From NCBI GenBank assembly GCA_026770025.1, contig JAMXDE010000007.1, positions 1,736,001 to 1,800,000 on the forward strand: a DNA stretch of 64,000 nucleotides. The letters are read 5' to 3'. Positions 18,915-52,964 of the stretch are shown here, in pieces (the first letter of the stretch is position 1; every line of letters starts with the position of its first letter). This DNA comes from Craspedostauros australis (Eukaryota > Bacillariophyta > Bacillariophyceae > Mastogloiales > Achnanthaceae). A program made the translations under genes and the position numbers. The notes below the pieces were generated by a model. That model had not been told where the DNA came from. It was given only the letters and a program-made list of their open reading frames with translations, and searched no databases.

Positions 18915-19180
18915 CGCTGTCTTGGTCTTGCGTTTGATCTCTCTTGATCTTCCATGTTGTGAGACTTGTTGCCCTTCCTCACATCTTTGCTTCCACGAAC
19001 GTGTCAGCAAGGCACGGGAAAAACGTTGAAACACAACTTCGAGCGTCTTCGACTACTACGACCATTTGTCGCGAACAGCTGAATCGATATTGCTGCTCGA
19101 CTCAATCGATTGTTTTCATTGGTTTGAGGATAACGCCTTTAACGCCAATATTTTAAAAAGCGAACTCCAACTACAGTCAA

Positions 19181-19340
19181 CTGATTCAATGAAACTAACA
19201 GCGATTCAATGAAACTAACAGCGATTCAATGAAACTAATAACGATTCAATGAAACTAATGACGTTTCAATGAAACTAATGATGTTTCAATGAAACTAATG
19301 ATGTCTCAATGAAACTAATGACGTCTCAATGAAACTAATG
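19181..19340. repeat. Left subterminal array, eight 20-bp units
   Basis: Units begin every 20 bp from 19181 to 19321 with no indel. The core TTCAATGAAACTAA is conserved, preceded by six variable bases. The inner TTCAATGAA is a dyad with a 1-nt centre. This fits a transposase or accessory-protein binding array. Confidence 0.95.
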
Positions 19341-19587
19341 CTGGACCAAGACTGAATGAGGAAAACAAGACTCAGAAAATCGTGTCAAGACTCAACGTCA
19401 TCCACTGCAACGGAACGCAATGAATCACTGTTCCAAAACAATGACAACATGATGAACATCAACACGCAGCCAAGCACTCGCCATCCCCGTCACATCACTC
19501 CGCTTCGCAGCCGACTACTCGAACAGGAGACGGAGAACAAGAACCAGCCCACGCATTCAACCAAACAACGACAACGATCAGCCAAGC

Positions 19588-21478
19588 ATGCAATGCAGAG
19601 GCAGACCAGCAAAGCAACTGATCAACCAAACTACCAGTGAAGGCAATCAGTCAAGAATGGAGCAGAAGAGCAAGCCTGTGAGGCGACTGTCCAACCGAGC
19701 AACCAGCAAGGCAACCAATCAACCAACCGATACAGGCAACCAGAAAAGCGCGCAGCCGAGGAGCAGGCCAGTGAAGCAGCCAACCAGCCGAGCAACCAGC
19801 AAGGCAACCAATCAACCAACCGATACAGGCAACCAGAAAGGCGCACGGCCGAGGAGCAGGCCAGTGAAGCAGCCATCCAACCGAGCAACCAGCCAACCCA
19901 ATCATCCAACCAATACAGGCAACCAGAAAAGCACGCAGCCGAGGAGCAGGCCAGTGAAGCAGCCAACCAACCGAGCAACCAGCCAACCCAATCAACCAAC
20001 CGATACAAGCAATCAACCAAATATGCAACGAAGGGGAAGGACTGCAAGGCAACCAACCAACCAACTGACCAGCAAGGCAGCCAACCAACCAACCGATACA
20101 GGCAATCAACCAAATATGAAACGAAGGGGGAGGCCTGTGAGGCAACCAACCAACCGAGCAACCAGCCAACCCAATCAACCAACCGATACAGGCAACCAGA
20201 AAAGCGCGCAGCCAAGGAGCAGGCCAGTGAAGCGAACGACCAACCGAGCAACCAGCCAACCCAATCAACCAACCGATACAGGCAACCAGAAAAGCACGCA
20301 GCCGAGGAGCAGGCCAGCGAAGCGACCAACCAACCGAGCAACCAGCCAACCCAATCAACCAACCGATGCAGCCAATCAACCAAATATGCAACGAAGGGGA
20401 AGGCCTGCAAGGCAACCAACCAACCAAGGTATCAGCCAAGGCAATCAACAAAATGATCGATTCATCAATCAGCCACCCCACAACGAAGCATCCAACAACA
20501 CAACTGAAATTGACTTCTTGTCAAGCGATGATATTCTGGAGCTTGGGTTGCAATATGCTGGCTTCCGACAAACCAGAATGGCAGAACGGACCAGACAGAA
20601 TCGATTTTCAGCGATGTACGGTTTGAGTCCAGAGAGCTTTGGCTGTCTCTTTATTGATCTATTCAATATTGAGACAGCACACAAAGTCAATCACCCTCGC
20701 CCATATGATACATTCGTTGTTCTGAACTGGCTCAAAGCCTACAGTACGGAGCATGCCATGGCAGGGCGTTGGGGCTTGGATGAGAAGACAATTCGGTCTC
20801 TCATCTGGTCATATTTACCAGCAATCCAAGCCTTGCTTCCAAGAAAGGTAAGCCACTGTGCACACTGCGATGCCACTTTGCTTCATATTCTATCCTGACA
20901 CAATCTTCTGTTGCACTTCGTTTCTTTTTATTTCCTTCTCTCAGGTCATTTGGCCTCCACACAATATGAAACTCACCGCGGACGACAAGCACTTCCTCAT
21001 CAGCGTTGACGGCGTCCATATCAAGATTCATGAACCCAGAACAGACCCCGGGACGAAGTGGTATAGCCACAAGTCCCACTCGGCAGGGCTCACCTATGAG
21101 CTTGGAATCTCACTAGCAGACAGCAAGCTTGTCTGGATCAATGGTCCCTTCCCTGCTTCTACATCAGACTTGGTGATGTATCGCAAACCTGATGGCCTCA
21201 AGAGCAAACTTCCACCAGGAGGAATGGTCATTGCTGATGGTGGCTATCAAAACGAGCCGACCATCAGTGCACCAAACCCGATGGACTCTGCTGCGGTGAA
21301 GAAATTCAAGAACAGGGCAAGAGCTCGACACGAGAGCTTCAATGGGAGGATCAAGAACTTCAAGGCTCTTGTCCACGATTATAGAAACGATCTTGGCAAA
21401 CATCAGTGTGTCTTCGAAGCCTGCTGTGTGTTGATACAGTATGAATTAGATAGTGGTCATCCTATATTCGAAATTTAA
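19588..21478 (+). CDS. PIF/Harbinger-like DDE transposase with AT-hook-like repeats
   Basis: Two exons, join(19588..20847, 20945..21478), encode 597 aa; the 97-bp phase-0 intron starts GTAAGC and ends CTCTCAG. Residues ~28-300 are nine ~30-residue repeats, each beginning R(P/T)(V/A)(K/R); several carry the AT-hook core RRGRP, others PRSRP. A helix-turn-helix-like segment follows (~330-420, including SPESFGCLF and WGLDEKTIRSL). The nuclease core gives a DDE triad: D442 in ISVDGVHI, D518 in VIADGGYQ and E550 in RARHESFNGRIK, the DDE_Tnp_4/Harbinger pattern. No frameshift or stop interrupts it. It should cut and paste the element, using the AT-hooks or the HTH to hold DNA. An ISL2EU/IS5-like assignment is a close alternative. 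Confidence 0.88.
19669..20490 (+). repeat. Coding minisatellite, nine ~90-bp units
   Basis: In-frame tandem repeats inside the transposase exon 1, encoding units of 30-31 residues rich in Thr, Asn, Gln and Pro, with an Arg-rich hook at each junction. Copies differ by point changes, so the array is not a sequencing artefact of identical units. Confidence 0.85.
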
Positions 21479-21572
21479 GTAAATACTGACATACTCTTCA
21501 ACTTATTAGAGCACTCGTGTGTGTTGGTAGTTTCATGAAACTTATGACTCCTGTGTATCGGTATTGTGATAT

Positions 21573-23494
21573 CTAAGAGAAGTAAGCATTGAGAGGATCA
21601 TCTTCATCAATGTCATCAGTGGGTGACTGCTCCTTGGTAGATTGATTGAGAGCGGCATCCTCTGCATGCTTCAACTTCTTCGGTGAGCATACGCCGATGT
21701 CCGAAATCGCACGCTTGAGGTGATGCCCTTCATCACCCATGATGGTATCGTTGCCGCGAACCACAAGGGTATGAGGAGCGGGAGGAACAGAACAAACAAT
21801 AGGTTCGCGGACGAGTGTTGGTGCAGCCATGGCCAAGGCAAGTTGGTTTGGAGCAGGAGTATCCAACGTGGATGCTGGAACATCCGGAAAGTTGAGCCCA
21901 TCGAAGCCGTCTTGACCAGGGAGAGGGACTTGTAATGCGGACCCCGGAGCGTCTGGGAAGGTCATCTCACCCGCATTCGCACCATGGATCGTCGGGTTAG
22001 TGTGTGGTGGGCTTGGAGTGTTCACCACTCCAAACTTGCTGTTGGCCTTTGGAGCGGTTGGAGCGTTCACCACTTCGGAGATTCTGTCGATCTTTGGAGG
22101 GACGATCACGGATGCCACTCCGGTTCCTGGCAGGGGCGTGCTGCTGCTGTTGCTGCTCGAAGGGACTGTGGACGGGGTGGGAGAGCTGTCGACGTCCATC
22201 TTGTCCGCGCCGCCTGTTTTGATAGTCAGGTTTGCTACATCATCAATTGCTCGGACACAGAATGGCGAAAGGAGAGAAGATGATAGGTGAAATGATAGTG
22301 AGTACTCTAGAGTAGTGCGGATTAGATGTGATTGCATCATAATGCATGACCGAACAAGTCAATTGAATTGGGGGACTTCCATGGTTACTCACCAGTGCTT
22401 GAGAGCATCCCAAAGAATGCATCGTCGACGTTCTCGGTGTTGGGGTTGCACAGCCCGACCTTGCCATGAAATCCAGCGATTGCAACTCTCCAGCACACCA
22501 CATTTGTTGGGATCTTGAGCTGGGCATTCGTTGCCTTGTGGACCAACACCTTTGGCGTTGGACAGTACGTCTTGGTGAGGCACTCGACTTCATTCTGGAA
22601 GAAGTTGGCGCTCAGGATCATTCCATCTGGGCAATGGAAGTAGGTGTACTTGGAGCCGACTCCCTTAGTGGTTTCACGGTTAACCAGCTTATGGAAAAGG
22701 AGCTTCTCACGTGCGAGATTGCCATCAGGAGCTCCCTTTCGCTGCATGAACATTGCATCTGTGCTGGTTTCCAGCATCAACGATGGGATGGCTGGCTCTT
22801 GGATCTTGATGCAGGTACCCTCGTCACAGATGGATGCCTTGATCTGATCAATGTCATCCTTGTCGACGAACAGCTTGCGGATGATGAGGCAGTCGAACGA
22901 TCTGCCCTCCTGGATGACATCATCCATCTGGTAGATCATCGTATTCTCCACATGATGGAAAGGATGGTCGAGATCAATGTTGTAGTGCTCGCCTTCTTCG
23001 TTGTTGGAGATTGTGGTGCTGGTTTCGTCGTTGGTCGTCATCTTGGCTTCGGTGGAAAAGAGAATCTTGCGTCGTCGCTGTGGTGAGAGGGTTGATGCCG
23101 ATGTTGATGTTAATGGTGTTGTGAGACTCTTCGTTTTTGATTTGGCAGTGGGCGTTGATGCCCATGGTGCATTGGGATCGTTCTCACCCACTGCCTGCTG
23201 CTGCACCTTGCGCAATGCCTGCAGCCCTGCCTTGTCGAGATACTTCTGAAGATAGTACTTGCGTTGTCTGCAAGCGTCTCGCTGTGCAGAACCGGGCTTG
23301 CCGAGGAGATGTTCGAATCGATCGCAGTGCAGCTTGAATTTATCGAAGCGTTTTGCACCAAGGAGGAAGTCCAAGATGGCGATGTCGACTTCCGGTCCCA
23401 TCGATTTCAAATTTGAGCGGGAGGAAGGCGGTTTGCGGATGGCACGCTGAGCCGGAGTGCTGGGCGCGGTGTTGGTGGTGGTTGGTTTGTTCAT
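21573..23494 (-). CDS. Transposon accessory protein, unknown family
   Basis: Two exons, complement(join(21573..22249, 22393..23494)), encode 592 aa; the phase-1 intron runs from GTGAGT to CCGAG (a second in-frame acceptor 15 bp later, GATGTAG, is possible). Start ATG at 23494; the frame extends upstream but looks non-coding. Residues ~30-110 are basic and helical (LGAKRFDKFKLHCDRFEHLL). A central region follows that may be globular (DDIDQIKASICDEGTCIKI, CPDGMILSANFF, VVCWRVAIAGFHG). The C-terminal third is Pro/Thr/Ser-rich and disordered, with a possible nuclear signal SPKKLKH near the end. I recognise no domain. Position between the transposase and the small ORF3 suggests an element-encoded partner, comparable in place but not in sequence to the second protein of Harbinger elements. 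Confidence 0.72.
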
Positions 23495-24346
23495 GGTTGC
23501 TTGTGCTTCTTTTTGTGACGACAAAATAAAGGCGAACCCACATCTCGTGATTTGGGCGAACTCACAAGACCGACCGAAAATTTCTGCGCCACTGTCAACA
23601 TCTTTGTGGGATGGTGTCGTGAATTCGAATCGTGGACGATACTTTGCGTGCGAGCGCGGACAATGACACACGTGGAACTCCAAAATTCTCACACAATCAC
23701 CGACAGTCGATGACAAGCAAAGCCGCAACACAACCAATTCAGAACAACAGACGATCACTGCAACAGCAATGGCTAACACACACGATACTGGGAACAATAC
23801 TGGCAACGGTAACCAACAATTGATCAATTGATCAACCAATACACATCATTCGCGAACGGCCAGCAACAGAATCAACCAAGGCAACGGCAAAGAACACCAT
23901 GGCAGTGAGACTGGTGGCAACACTGCTGGCCCAGTTGAAGAGGATGGCCACAAGCTGGGGAGGGGAGTGACTCGTCCGCCAGCTATAACATCGACACTGT
24001 GGCACTGCGGACTTGGAGCAGCATCAGAAACATCATCCACAGCTGCACTCATAACAGCATCAATTTGCACACAAAAATTTGCGTCAGCTCATACTGCAAC
24101 ACCTGGAACACCATTCGCAATCGCAGCAACGGCCACACAACAACAGCCAGGTAACAGCAGCTCCAGCATCGCGATCACCAATGGCATTGGTGCGCAAGCC
24201 TTTGCACGCCAGCATTCACAGCAGTCTGTGCAGCAACACCTGCAACTGCATTGGCAAAGGCAACAGTTCGATACCAGCATCATCATCGGCATCAGCATCA
24301 GCATCGTCAGCATCATCAGCAGCATCATTGTCACGCAGAAAGCAAG
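23495..24346. other. Internal divergent region of the transposon
   Basis: About 850 bp between the two accessory genes. It contains runs of CAG/CAA and CATCAG-type codons in open frames, but no consistent coding frame. It likely holds both promoters and the 5' leaders. An unrecognised upstream exon of the small gene is possible. Confidence 0.45.
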
Positions 24347-24823
24347 ATGCCATTCACATGGTCTGATGCCAAGAAGATATTGGAGGAGGAGCTCAAGGCA
24401 GGGGCCATCACGAAAGAGATGAAGCCCAAGGAAATCTATGAAAGGCATGCTGACTTCTCCAATGTGAAGTACACCAACTTCCGCAACAACTTGAATTGCC
24501 TCCGAAAAAAGTGGAAGAAGCACGAGGAGGATGCAATGGAGGCAGAGAGTGCACTCATTGCTTTCCGCAAAATGGCAATTACGTCAATGCCAACAGGCAA
24601 GCTGAAATGGGATGGTTCCAAAGCTCAGAACGCGATGAGAAGAGACTTCAAAGATGAACTCTTGAAGTCTCTTACACCCAAGCAACTATACCAAAAGCGG
24701 CCATGCTATCAGGAATTCCCTATGGAGCAATTTCGGAAACACTTTCATGCAGCAAAACGATCGAAATACGAGTCTTTGTATTGGCAGCAACGCAGAAAGG
24801 ACAATCAGAACGCAAAGCGCTAA
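24347..24823 (+). CDS. Small transposon protein with a duplicated helical module
   Basis: 158 aa from ATG 24347; the frame is open upstream to 24251 but His/Gln low-complexity. Two related halves are visible. Residues 1-~57: FTWSDAKKILEEEL, MKPKEIYERHADF, VKYTNFRNNLNCLRKK. Residues ~85-140: LKWDGSKAQNAMRRDF, LTPKQLYQKRPCY, FPMEQFRKHFHAAKR. Each half has W, a basic helix, a K-x-(L/I)-Y-x-(R/K) motif and an aromatic-plus-basic helix, reminiscent of SANT/MADF-like DNA-binding folds. Harbinger elements usually encode a Myb/SANT-type partner required for transposition, and this is the best candidate. DNA binding is inference. Confidence 0.72.
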   Translation: MPFTWSDAKKILEEELKAGAITKEMKPKEIYERHADFSNVKYTNFRNNLNCLRKKWKKHEEDAMEAESALIAFRKMAITSMPTGKLKWDGSKAQNAMRRDFKDELLKSLTPKQLYQKRPCYQEFPMEQFRKHFHAAKRSKYESLYWQQRRKDNQNAKR

Positions 24824-25040
24824 TATAACAATAGCAACAGTCGTCCTGTGGTGGATGTATCTCGAATCCTGCTTCTACTGATTGTGGCACGTATATTGAT
24901 TGTGTCACATAGCATGGGCAAGCATTTGTTGTTGTGAGCACGTTTGGCTCATTTTGCGCCTGATTTCGTCGTTGCGAGAATGGAGGTCCAAACGTGGCAG
25001 AATCGGTCCATGTGCCAAGACACGAATCATTGGACCTCAG

Positions 25041-25200
25041 CGAACATTCAATGAAACTAATCCGCTTTCAATGAAACTAACCTAGTTTCAATGAATCTAA
25101 CCTCGGTTCAATGAAACTAACCTCGGTTCAATGAAACTAACCTCGGTTCAATGAAACTAATCCGCTTTCAATGAAACTAGTCTACTTTCAATGAAAGTAG
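25041..25200. repeat. Right subterminal array, eight 20-bp units
   Basis: Eight contiguous 20-bp units with the same core, TTCAATGAAACTAA, and the same orientation as the left array. Three central units are identical (CCTCGG spacer). The last unit drifts to ATGAAAGTAG. Unit number and length exactly match the left array. Confidence 0.95.
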
Positions 25201-25654
25201 AGATACCTCGTAGTACGTATATAACGTCTACTTAACGTTCCATGGATGAAGATCTTGCAATTGGTTTTGACTTGTCCGCATCGGAGACACTGTCGAACAC
25301 GGCATGGGTGGGGTGGAGGACAGACGTCCATTCTCCAGGCACGGTTTCAACGAATTTCCCGTGCCTTGCAGGCGTTGTTTTCGCAATGTCCACGTATTAT
25401 TACATGTATGATATATATTGCCGTGACTTCCACTCCTGATTGACTCATTGGACTATAATATCTGTCTGTCTTTCCACCCGTTGTCGCAGAATCCAACCAA
25501 CCAACAAAACGAAACAACACAAAACACGAAGGAGGCCACGCTTCTCACAAAATGGCGAAATCTGTCCACAGAATCCGACCACAACGCCTCACGACACACA
25601 AGAGCCAATCCAGAAGACGCCACCACCAGCAACATCTCCACCTTCCTGTCATCG

Positions 25655-39917: not shown

Positions 39918-39980
39918 GTCGCCAATGGATGTCGCCAATGGATGTCGCCAATGGATGTCGCCAATGGATGTCGCCAATGG
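39918..39980. repeat. 13-bp tandem repeat, ~5 copies
   Basis: Unit GTCGCCAATGGAT repeated without error, upstream of the PKG gene. Confidence 0.95.
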
Positions 39981-40074
39981 AAGCTGCAGTTCGTCCCGAT
40001 TGCTCTGGACAGGTGCCAGCCAACATCGTACGAGGAAGGCACGCCACAGCATTGAACATGTCGGTGCGATACTG

Positions 40075-51071: not shown

Positions 51072-52964
51072 ATGCCACCCATGAAGAAAGACATCCTCGC
51101 TCTCGTCATCGCACAGAGCATCATCTGCAACGGCGTCGATGCTGTGCTCGACACGAGCAGCCGCACCAAGGTCGCCCCAGATCTCAACGTCGATGTCGAC
51201 ATCAACGCTCTTCAAGCGAAGTTCGGCAAGCTGGCAGCTGAGCGCAAGGCCAAGATCTTGGCGTTCAACTCTGCCCACGCTGACAACACCAAGATCACAG
51301 CACAAGACACCGAAGACAAGGTGAACATGCTCCTCTCTGACACCTCCTCCGTGCCCAACATCGATGATCTTGTTCCCAACTTCAAGGACGCCAACACCAA
51401 GGCCAAGACAAGCAACTTCCGTCGTCGACGTGCCACCTCTTCCACCAACACCAAGAGCGAGGACAAGAACAAGCTTGAGCGTAAGCTTGAGCGCAAGTTC
51501 ACCGATCTTGGCCGTCTTCAAGGCACCATTGATGATGCCGAGAAGGGTGCGTTGCTTGCGTCCATCGCAGAACTTCGTCATGAGGGGACGGCCGAAACCC
51601 TCAATGCTCACAACCGCCACCTCAAGTCCCCCAAATCTGAGAAATCGTCAAAGGGAGCCAAGTCTGAGAAGTCGTCCAAGTCCAACAAGGCATTCAAGTC
51701 GTGCTTCACTGGAACGGCCGAAGATGTCATCGCAAAGTGCGCAGACGAGGAGGCTAGTTGCTGTCAAGCACCAGTCAATGAGACAGCGTGTGCGTGGGGC
51801 AGCGACCGACTCGTGACGGTGTGCCCCAACTCCTGCAATGGCAATTCCTCTTGCGCATTCAGTCTCAACGAGACAACGGCCATCACGATTGCTCCCTACG
51901 CTTGCAATGGCGTGGTTGCCTGCGCTGGCATCGAGATATCAATTCCTTCTTACGCTTGCAATGGCACCTACAGTTGCACAGACAGCACCGGTAAAGTCAG
52001 TGAGTATTCTTGCAACGGTTACGGTGCTTGCTACAAAAACTCAGGCGATATCTCCGCATCCTCGTGCTTGGGGAGGGATTCGTGTGATCGGAATATGGGC
52101 GACATTAGCGAGGATTCTTGCAATGGCCGCTTCAGTTGCGGATACAACACCGGCAAAGTCAGTGAGTCTTCTTGCAACAGCTACGCTGCTTGCTCATATA
52201 ACTCAGGCGATATCTCCGCATTCTCGTGCATTGGTGGGAGTTCGTGTGATGCGAATAGGGGGGACATCAGCGAATTTTCTTGCATCGCAGACTACGCATG
52301 TTCCTCCAACAAAGGCGACGTCCCGAAAAACTCCTGCAATGGCCGCTTCAGTTGCGGATACAACACCGGCAAAGTCAGCGAGTATTCTTGCAGCGGCGAC
52401 AAGGCTTGCATATCAAACTCAGGCGATATCTCCACATTCTCATGCGTTGGGAATCATGCTTGCAACGCCAATGAAGGAAACGTCGATGCCGGATCCTGCA
52501 TTGGGAATGATGCTTGCGACTGCAATGGAGGAAACGTCGATGCCGGATCCTGCATTGGAGAGGAAGCTTGCTACTACAATGAAGGAAACGTCGATGCCGG
52601 ATCCTGCATTGGAGAGGAAGCTTGCTACTACAATGAAGGAAAGGTCGATGCCGGATCCTGTATCGGCGAAAACGCCTGCACCGCCAACGAAGGCACGATT
52701 GCTGCAAGCTCCTGCCTCGGCAACTTCACTTGTCGCGAGAACGCTGGCGACATCGGCCAGGACTCCTGCCAAGGCCCATACGCCTGTTTCTTCAACAAGG
52801 CCGACGTGGGCATGGGATCGTGCTACGAATTCGCAGCATGCCGCCTCAACACCGGAATGGTTGGGGACGGAGCCTGCCGTGGCAATTCCTCGTGTTTCAA
52901 CAACACTGACGTCATCCCCGATGGAGAATGCATCGGCGTAGAAGCGTGCGCTGTGATGCCATGA
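51072..52964 (+). CDS. Secreted Cys-rich tandem-repeat protein
   Basis: Single exon, 630 aa. A signal peptide is likely at 1-~24 (a Leu/Ile-rich core, then CNGVDA/VLD). Residues ~25-215 are Lys/Ser/Asp-rich with a short coiled region and KSSKGAKSEKSSK repeats. From ~220 to the end run about 20 repeats of ~18 residues with the consensus SCxGxxAC..N.G.(I/V)...S, for example AGSCIGEEACYYNEGNVD. Two cysteines per repeat suggest a disulphide-stapled solenoid. Some neighbouring repeats are identical at DNA level (52535-52640), showing recent unit duplication. Similar repeat proteins occur in diatoms as secreted or wall-associated proteins of unknown function. No enzyme motif seen. Confidence 0.82.
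   Translation: MPPMKKDILALVIAQSIICNGVDAVLDTSSRTKVAPDLNVDVDINALQAKFGKLAAERKAKILAFNSAHADNTKITAQDTEDKVNMLLSDTSSVPNIDDLVPNFKDANTKAKTSNFRRRRATSSTNTKSEDKNKLERKLERKFTDLGRLQGTIDDAEKGALLASIAELRHEGTAETLNAHNRHLKSPKSEKSSKGAKSEKSSKSNKAFKSCFTGTAEDVIAKCADEEASCCQAPVNETACAWGSDRLVTVCPNSCNGNSSCAFSLNETTAITIAPYACNGVVACAGIEISIPSYACNGTYSCTDSTGKVSEYSCNGYGACYKNSGDISASSCLGRDSCDRNMGDISEDSCNGRFSCGYNTGKVSESSCNSYAACSYNSGDISAFSCIGGSSCDANRGDISEFSCIADYACSSNKGDVPKNSCNGRFSCGYNTGKVSEYSCSGDKACISNSGDISTFSCVGNHACNANEGNVDAGSCIGNDACDCNGGNVDAGSCIGEEACYYNEGNVDAGSCIGEEACYYNEGKVDAGSCIGENACTANEGTIAASSCLGNFTCRENAGDIGQDSCQGPYACFFNKADVGMGSCYEFAACRLNTGMVGDGACRGNSSCFNNTDVIPDGECIGVEACAVMP

Follow-up and report, generated by a model that had tools for sequence, protein, structure and literature searches.

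Two described groups of transposons are among the systems closest to the element reported here. PIF/Harbinger elements proper have two genes, encoding a DDE transposase and a further DNA-binding protein, and duplicate a TWA target (PMC4482050, PMC9179366). NuwaI elements, reported from 16 animal genomes, are defined by CWG duplications and combine a DDE transposase of the PIF/Harbinger kind with an additional open reading frame (ORF), which is said to encode a DNA-binding protein of the Myb/SANT type; their short inverted ends usually start with GGG, and the role of the extra ORFs in PHIS transposons is called unknown (PMC4482050). The word "subterminal" is absent from the main text of that paper, as are "subterminal", "direct repeat" and "tandem" from the main text of PMC9179366. 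As far as the available text of the reports goes, repeated motifs inside the ends have been described for other superfamilies. Muta1, a Mutator-like element of Aedes aegypti, carries nine copies of a 12-base-pair (bp) subterminal tandem repeat at its ends, with a repeat number that varies in non-autonomous copies, and its movement was shown in yeast (PMC5225508). In Herves (hAT; PMC3143072) and Galileo (P superfamily; PMC3688188), the transposase or its DNA-binding domain binds such motifs, and a higher-order end complex was proposed for Galileo. Here we analysed a window of 64,000 nucleotides from the diatom Craspedostauros australis (the whole stretch, positions 1,736,001 to 1,800,000 of the forward strand of contig JAMXDE010000007.1, assembly GCA_026770025.1), which contains a transposon with a tandem array of 20-bp units inside each end.

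Our results indicate that this element is a three-gene DDE transposon of the PHIS type with composite ends, whose arrays would be cis-acting sites bound by a protein of the element; we put the probability of this reading at roughly 0.7. The preliminary description had placed a transposon at 19130..25240, with the matched arrays in place of short inverted ends. The transposon was recovered, but that extent was too narrow: it is a cut-and-paste element of 6,361 bp, spanning 19008-25368, with inverted ends of approximately 25 bp and a CAG duplication. The ends could be fixed because the window copy (C5) has a counterpart on contig C60 with 99.84% identity over 6,363 bp, and the similarity ceases on either side. 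Since these two nearly identical copies occupy different sites and have different duplications (CAG/CAG around the window copy and CTG/CTG around the C60 copy), the element has moved recently. No empty site for the window insertion was found in the genome search; the joined flanks overlap by CAG. The parts of the element, in window coordinates, are as follows.

19005..19007, no strand: target-site duplication CAG, left
19008..19032, plus strand: terminal inverted repeat of the left end, CAAGGCACGGGAAAAACGTTGAAAC, its boundary fixed by comparison with the C60 copy
19131..19149, plus strand: TAACG-type block of the left end, two TAACGCC 9 bp apart
19181..19340, plus strand: left array, 8 units of 20 bp
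19588..20847, plus strand: transposase exon 1, start codon uncertain, 30-amino-acid repeats rich in R[GS]R motifs followed by a conserved region
20945..21478, plus strand: transposase exon 2, containing the DDE_Tnp_4 domain (PF13359), its splice sites predicted from GT/AG and the reading frame
21573..22340, minus strand: second open frame of ORF2, probably a further exon, junction predicted and exact start uncertain
22385..23494, minus strand: first exon or main open frame of ORF2, family unassigned
24347..24823, plus strand: ORF3, 158 amino acids, predicted to be helical, candidate DNA-binding protein
25041..25200, plus strand: right array, again eight 20-bp units, on the same strand as the left one
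25222..25239, plus strand: TAACG-type block of the right end
25344..25368, minus strand: right terminal inverted repeat, CAAGGCACGGGAAATTCGTTGAAAC
25369..25371, no strand: target-site duplication CAG, right, the two flanks overlapping by CAG

The two arrays of eight 20-bp units were confirmed at 19181-19340 and 25041-25200, with an exact pitch, one strand and no indels; their unit cores lie at 19185 + 20k and 25047 + 20k. A search of the whole window with TTCAATGAAACTAA, allowing up to two mismatches, returned 17 matches: the 16 cores of the two arrays and, on the minus strand, one overlapping match at 25082. In 100 shuffles, the mean was 0.33 matches and the highest number 2. Between the arrays, the ORFs that had been called intact are indeed open, and the transposase is of the DDE type. 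Its exon 2 matched PF13359 (E value 2.4e-15, with a score of 57 bits where the cut-off is 24.8), which we take to be a marker of the PHIS superfamily, and a candidate catalytic triad is located at residues 442, 518 and 550 of the predicted spliced protein. The repetitive N-terminus is encoded by a 90-bp tandem repeat (window 19691-20449); in other subfamilies, different repeats take this position.

To place the window copy among its relatives, the genome (74.8 Mb in 90 contigs) was searched. The inverted-end pattern matched 126 times, and a reversed control pattern did not match at all; 100 of the 126 matches were listed, and all but several of the listed pairs were read. We assembled 24 complete elements, 17 via similarity to the arrays or the transposase and seven via the inverted ends alone. 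Copies on C11, C27, C56, C43 and C1 (320-328 kb) were excluded as incomplete or interrupted; two copies (C11:1690583-1713465 and C27, approximately 318.2-328.3 kb) are split by long inserts, and in the C27 copy the insertion falls in the region of the left array. Ten further end pairs were picked by the inverted ends alone and read for 505 bp per end, their unit counts being left unused.

The 3-bp duplication agreed between left and right in all 24 complete elements (CAG or CTG) and in all ten further pairs (nine CWG and one CCG), giving CAG or CTG in 33 and CCG in one of the 34 elements; the end search pattern favoured a CWG flank but not a left-right match. The inverted ends extend over 25-40 bp at 80% identity, and their outermost bases were CAAGG or CAAGA in 24/24. 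Every complete element contained two arrays, with 20 as the best of the lags tested (16-24), and both arrays lay on one strand; a chain of units on the opposite strand was never longer than one. The first core of the left array was found 175-178 bp, and the last core of the right array 164-168 bp, from the respective element end (24/24), in agreement with the distances in the further pairs (175-178 bp and 163-167 bp). A TAACG-type motif occurred on the array strand 120-133 bp from the left end and 124-145 bp from the right end in all 24; this search tolerated two mismatches and gave extra minus-strand matches at the right end in eight elements and at the left end in C33 and C7. The arrays thus belong to the transposon, as originally proposed: they lie inside the ends of every complete copy, and the ten further pairs had a left array in ten and a right array in nine cases. 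Over all 17 elements picked by inverted ends alone, the left array was present in 17 and the right array in 16.

Three proteins were matched in one order, namely the transposase, ORF2 (opposite strand) and ORF3, in 11 of the 24 elements, which cover all five subfamilies; among the damaged copies, ORF3 of C7 has a stop, and the transposase and ORF2 of C35b are broken. Thirteen elements (ten of 0.97-1.34 kb and three of 3.9 kb) had no listed match to these proteins, transposase exon 1 matches ending before residue 300 (the N-terminal repeats) having been removed before listing. These copies bear on the possibility that the arrays are regulatory, that is, that a host or element protein uses them to control transcription of the element or to silence it and that they take no direct part in cutting or joining. 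The transposase gene follows directly after the left array, a transcription factor could well use repeated sites of uniform length, and the array position is kept in gene-bearing copies. However, the right array is downstream of ORF3, on the far side of the element, and all 13 elements without a listed protein match, including the ten short ones, retain both arrays at the usual distances. Because gene-less copies keep both arrays, a role in movement rather than in gene control alone is suggested, and we consider the regulatory explanation unlikely.

The unit sequence shifts between the five subfamilies, largely in parallel at both ends. The consensus cores in the gene-bearing copies, one subfamily per line, are as follows.

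Left and right arrays both TTCAATGAAACTAA
Left and right arrays both TTCAATGAAAGTAA
Left array TTCGATGAAAGTAC, right array TTCGATGAAAGTAA
Left and right arrays both AACGTTGAAAGTAC
Left array AACGTTGAAACTAA, right array ATTGTTGAAACTAA

The dyad core given in the preliminary description, TTCAATGAA, represents the consensus for two subfamilies but not for the other three; the part shared by the whole family is TGAAA[C/G]TA. When the left and right consensus cores were compared element by element for all 24, they were identical in 14, differed at one position in six and at two in four, and the choice of C or G after TGAAA agreed in 24/24; short copies were assigned to subfamilies partly by their units, which makes unit agreement within subfamilies partly circular for them. 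The GAAA of the array unit also occurs in the inner part of 47 of the 48 inverted ends. The distance of the arrays remained constant although the DNA between the inverted repeat and the array has diverged between subfamilies (identity of 48-59% at the left end and 31-53% at the right end; ten pairs among five representatives). In arrays of at least four units, departures from the local consensus numbered 243 among 5,824 positions of the 14-bp core and 607 among 2,496 positions of the 6-bp spacer, with the unit length still 20; the threshold for calling a core was 11 of 14 letters (417 of 422 positions), and this biases the comparison toward the core.

Such arrays might also be passive tandem repeats, generated by slippage and gene conversion and maintained by homogenisation rather than by selection. 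The number of units, ranging from 3 to 17, fits this explanation, as do the likeness of the two arrays within one copy and the differing counts in three copies of 96-98% identity (8/9, 8/10 and 7/8 units, left/right). However, core and spacer variability are sixfold apart within the same arrays, which tells against homogenisation because that process would affect core and spacer alike. In addition, the unit length is fixed at 20 while the unit sequence changes, and in 24/24 the distance of the outer array edges varies by no more than 3-4 bp, so that we regard passive repeats as decidedly improbable. The earlier suggestion of a counted platform, with unit number itself as the signal, is scarcely credible, because, although the window copy and its sister copy have 8 + 8 units and equal counts occurred in eight of the 24 elements (r = 0.31 between counts) against a shuffle mean of 3.5 (P of approximately 0.01, uncorrected for kinship, related copies inflating the excess), the counts span 4-13 units in the left array and 3-17 in the right, and 16 elements have unequal counts, equality thus being no trait of the family. 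A strict counting rule is refuted; a weak link between left and right counts may exist.

Within the element, ORF2 and ORF3, the two genes compared in this way, are under purifying selection: the ratio of nonsynonymous to synonymous substitution rates (dN/dS) was 0.09-0.29 for ORF2 and 0.06-0.16 for ORF3; seven pairs were compared for each gene, and in several of them dS approached saturation. A single-sequence structural model of ORF3 predicts two similar helical units at a predicted local distance difference test (pLDDT) score of 68. On the reading that we prefer, namely that the arrays are sites for an element protein, each end would consist, from the outside inward, of an inverted repeat of approximately 25 bp, a TAACG-type block approximately 120-145 bp in, and the 20-bp-pitch array from approximately 165-178 bp. 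The leading candidate for the binding protein is ORF3, and the repetitive, arginine-rich N-terminus of the transposase is the alternative. At a pitch of about two helical turns, the protein would align along one face of the helix in a side-by-side complex; this complex may gather the transposase at a defined spacing from the cleavage site and, beyond mere recruitment or regulation, may help to pair the two ends, which would be unlike since the arrays share an orientation.

Several observations weigh against this reading. Same-facing arrays are unexpected for a mirror-symmetric end complex, and the left array, being also upstream of the transposase gene, may have a promoter role. The left and right arrays are slightly unlike in consensus in 10 of the 24 elements, and C54 carries mixed C and G units. 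Because the copies are related, the five subfamilies are a safer count of independent cases than the 24 elements. At C78:90050-98103, where the CCG duplications match, one recognisable right unit accompanies nine units in the left stretch read; a complete right array may therefore be dispensable, or the array may have shrunk later. ORF3 has no confident family match. A Pfam scan of seven ORF3 members found no Myb/SANT domain and gave a weak match to HTH_71 in two of the seven (best E value 0.043), while an equally weak match, also in two of the seven, was to a plainly unrelated family. Fold comparison, based on the single-sequence model, yielded weak signals and no clear match.

The sequence features of the element, namely a PIF/Harbinger-type DDE domain, a short target duplication and terminal inverted repeats, agree with those of the PHIS superfamily, and its CWG duplications are of the NuwaI type. 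In comparison with the published description of NuwaI, it shares the kind of transposase, the 3-bp CWG duplication (33/34), short inverted ends and the presence of an additional ORF, although ORF3 is here only a candidate DNA-binding protein; it differs in its CAAGG or CAAGA termini and in having three genes, and no Myb/SANT domain was recognised in the seven ORF3 members scanned (PMC4482050). With PIF/Harbinger proper it has in common a DDE transposase and, with ORF3 as the candidate, a further DNA-binding protein, but it has three genes, and its CAG, CTG or CCG duplications do not correspond to TWA (PMC4482050, PMC9179366). Muta1 resembles it in its subterminal arrays of variable repeat number, but belongs to another superfamily with 8-9 bp duplications, and its repeats, separated by 3-4 bp spacers, lie within a 145-bp inverted repeat, whereas the arrays here face the same way approximately 150 bp inside a short one (PMC5225508). 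The 3-bp duplications and the same-facing arrays outside the inverted repeat do not fit a Mutator-like element of this type. Herves and Galileo differ in superfamily and in having few or irregular sites without a fixed-pitch array, as described in the available text (PMC3143072, PMC3688188). The locus had been put forward as a candidate for an undescribed system; matched subterminal arrays are known from Mutator-like elements, but the combination of a PHIS-type transposase, CWG duplications, three genes and same-facing fixed-pitch arrays was not met in the literature searched.

Relatives of ORF3 elsewhere in the genome are 24-36% identical to it, and seven of them sit 2.7-3.0 kb from a DDE_Tnp_4 match. 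We read right ends beside four such relatives (L067-L070). Those at L067-L069 terminate in ACCGGACGGT plus one base, have a CWG flank and carry TATAACGTCTA; they contain a short array with a 19-bp pitch (2.5-2.9 copies) and further irregular TTCTGAA nearby. At L070 (C1:2396300-2397150), units of 29 bp containing the palindrome GTGCCCTAAATAGGGCAC form an array of 5.8 copies, adjoining an ORF3 relative of 25% identity that is itself 3.0 kb from a DDE_Tnp_4 match. At one left end (L071), the inverted end matches and the flank is CAG; TTCTGAA repeats occur there irregularly, some of them on the opposite strand, and exact TAACGTCTA was not found. As far as these few ends show, elements of this kind in the genome seem to carry subterminal arrays as a rule; the strict 20-bp pitch does not seem to be general. 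DDE_Tnp_4 matches as such numbered at least 150 genome-wide (150 of 227 candidates scored), most of them outside the array-bearing family.

A more far-reaching proposal, which we hold only tentatively and consider rather doubtful, is that a diatom branch of PHIS elements has its own end plan, in which same-facing fixed-pitch arrays, set at a constant distance from the cleavage site, would carry a side-by-side filament of an element protein joining unlike ends, with pitch and distance selected over sequence and copy number, and that the families with 19- and 29-bp pitches follow the same plan. In the five subfamilies the arrays have altered in sequence, mostly in step at the two ends, and the three genes have been kept, so that the pairing of protein and array could be tested by swapping; these subfamilies also lend themselves to asking whether it is spacing and distance, and not the sequence or number of sites, that build the transposition complex. 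If the grouping is true, CWG-duplicating PHIS elements extend beyond animals.

Apart from the transposon, the window contains a perfect 13-bp tandem repeat of 4.9 copies (39918-39981), and tandem repeats of 162 bp and 54 bp, whose lengths are multiples of three and which are possibly coding (51955-52693). In the genome, the silicic-acid transporter family PF03842 gave 88 matches, as would suit a diatom host or, less probably, another silicifying lineage; approximately 32 of the matches cover most of the model, and a count of 88 looks large for a diatom.

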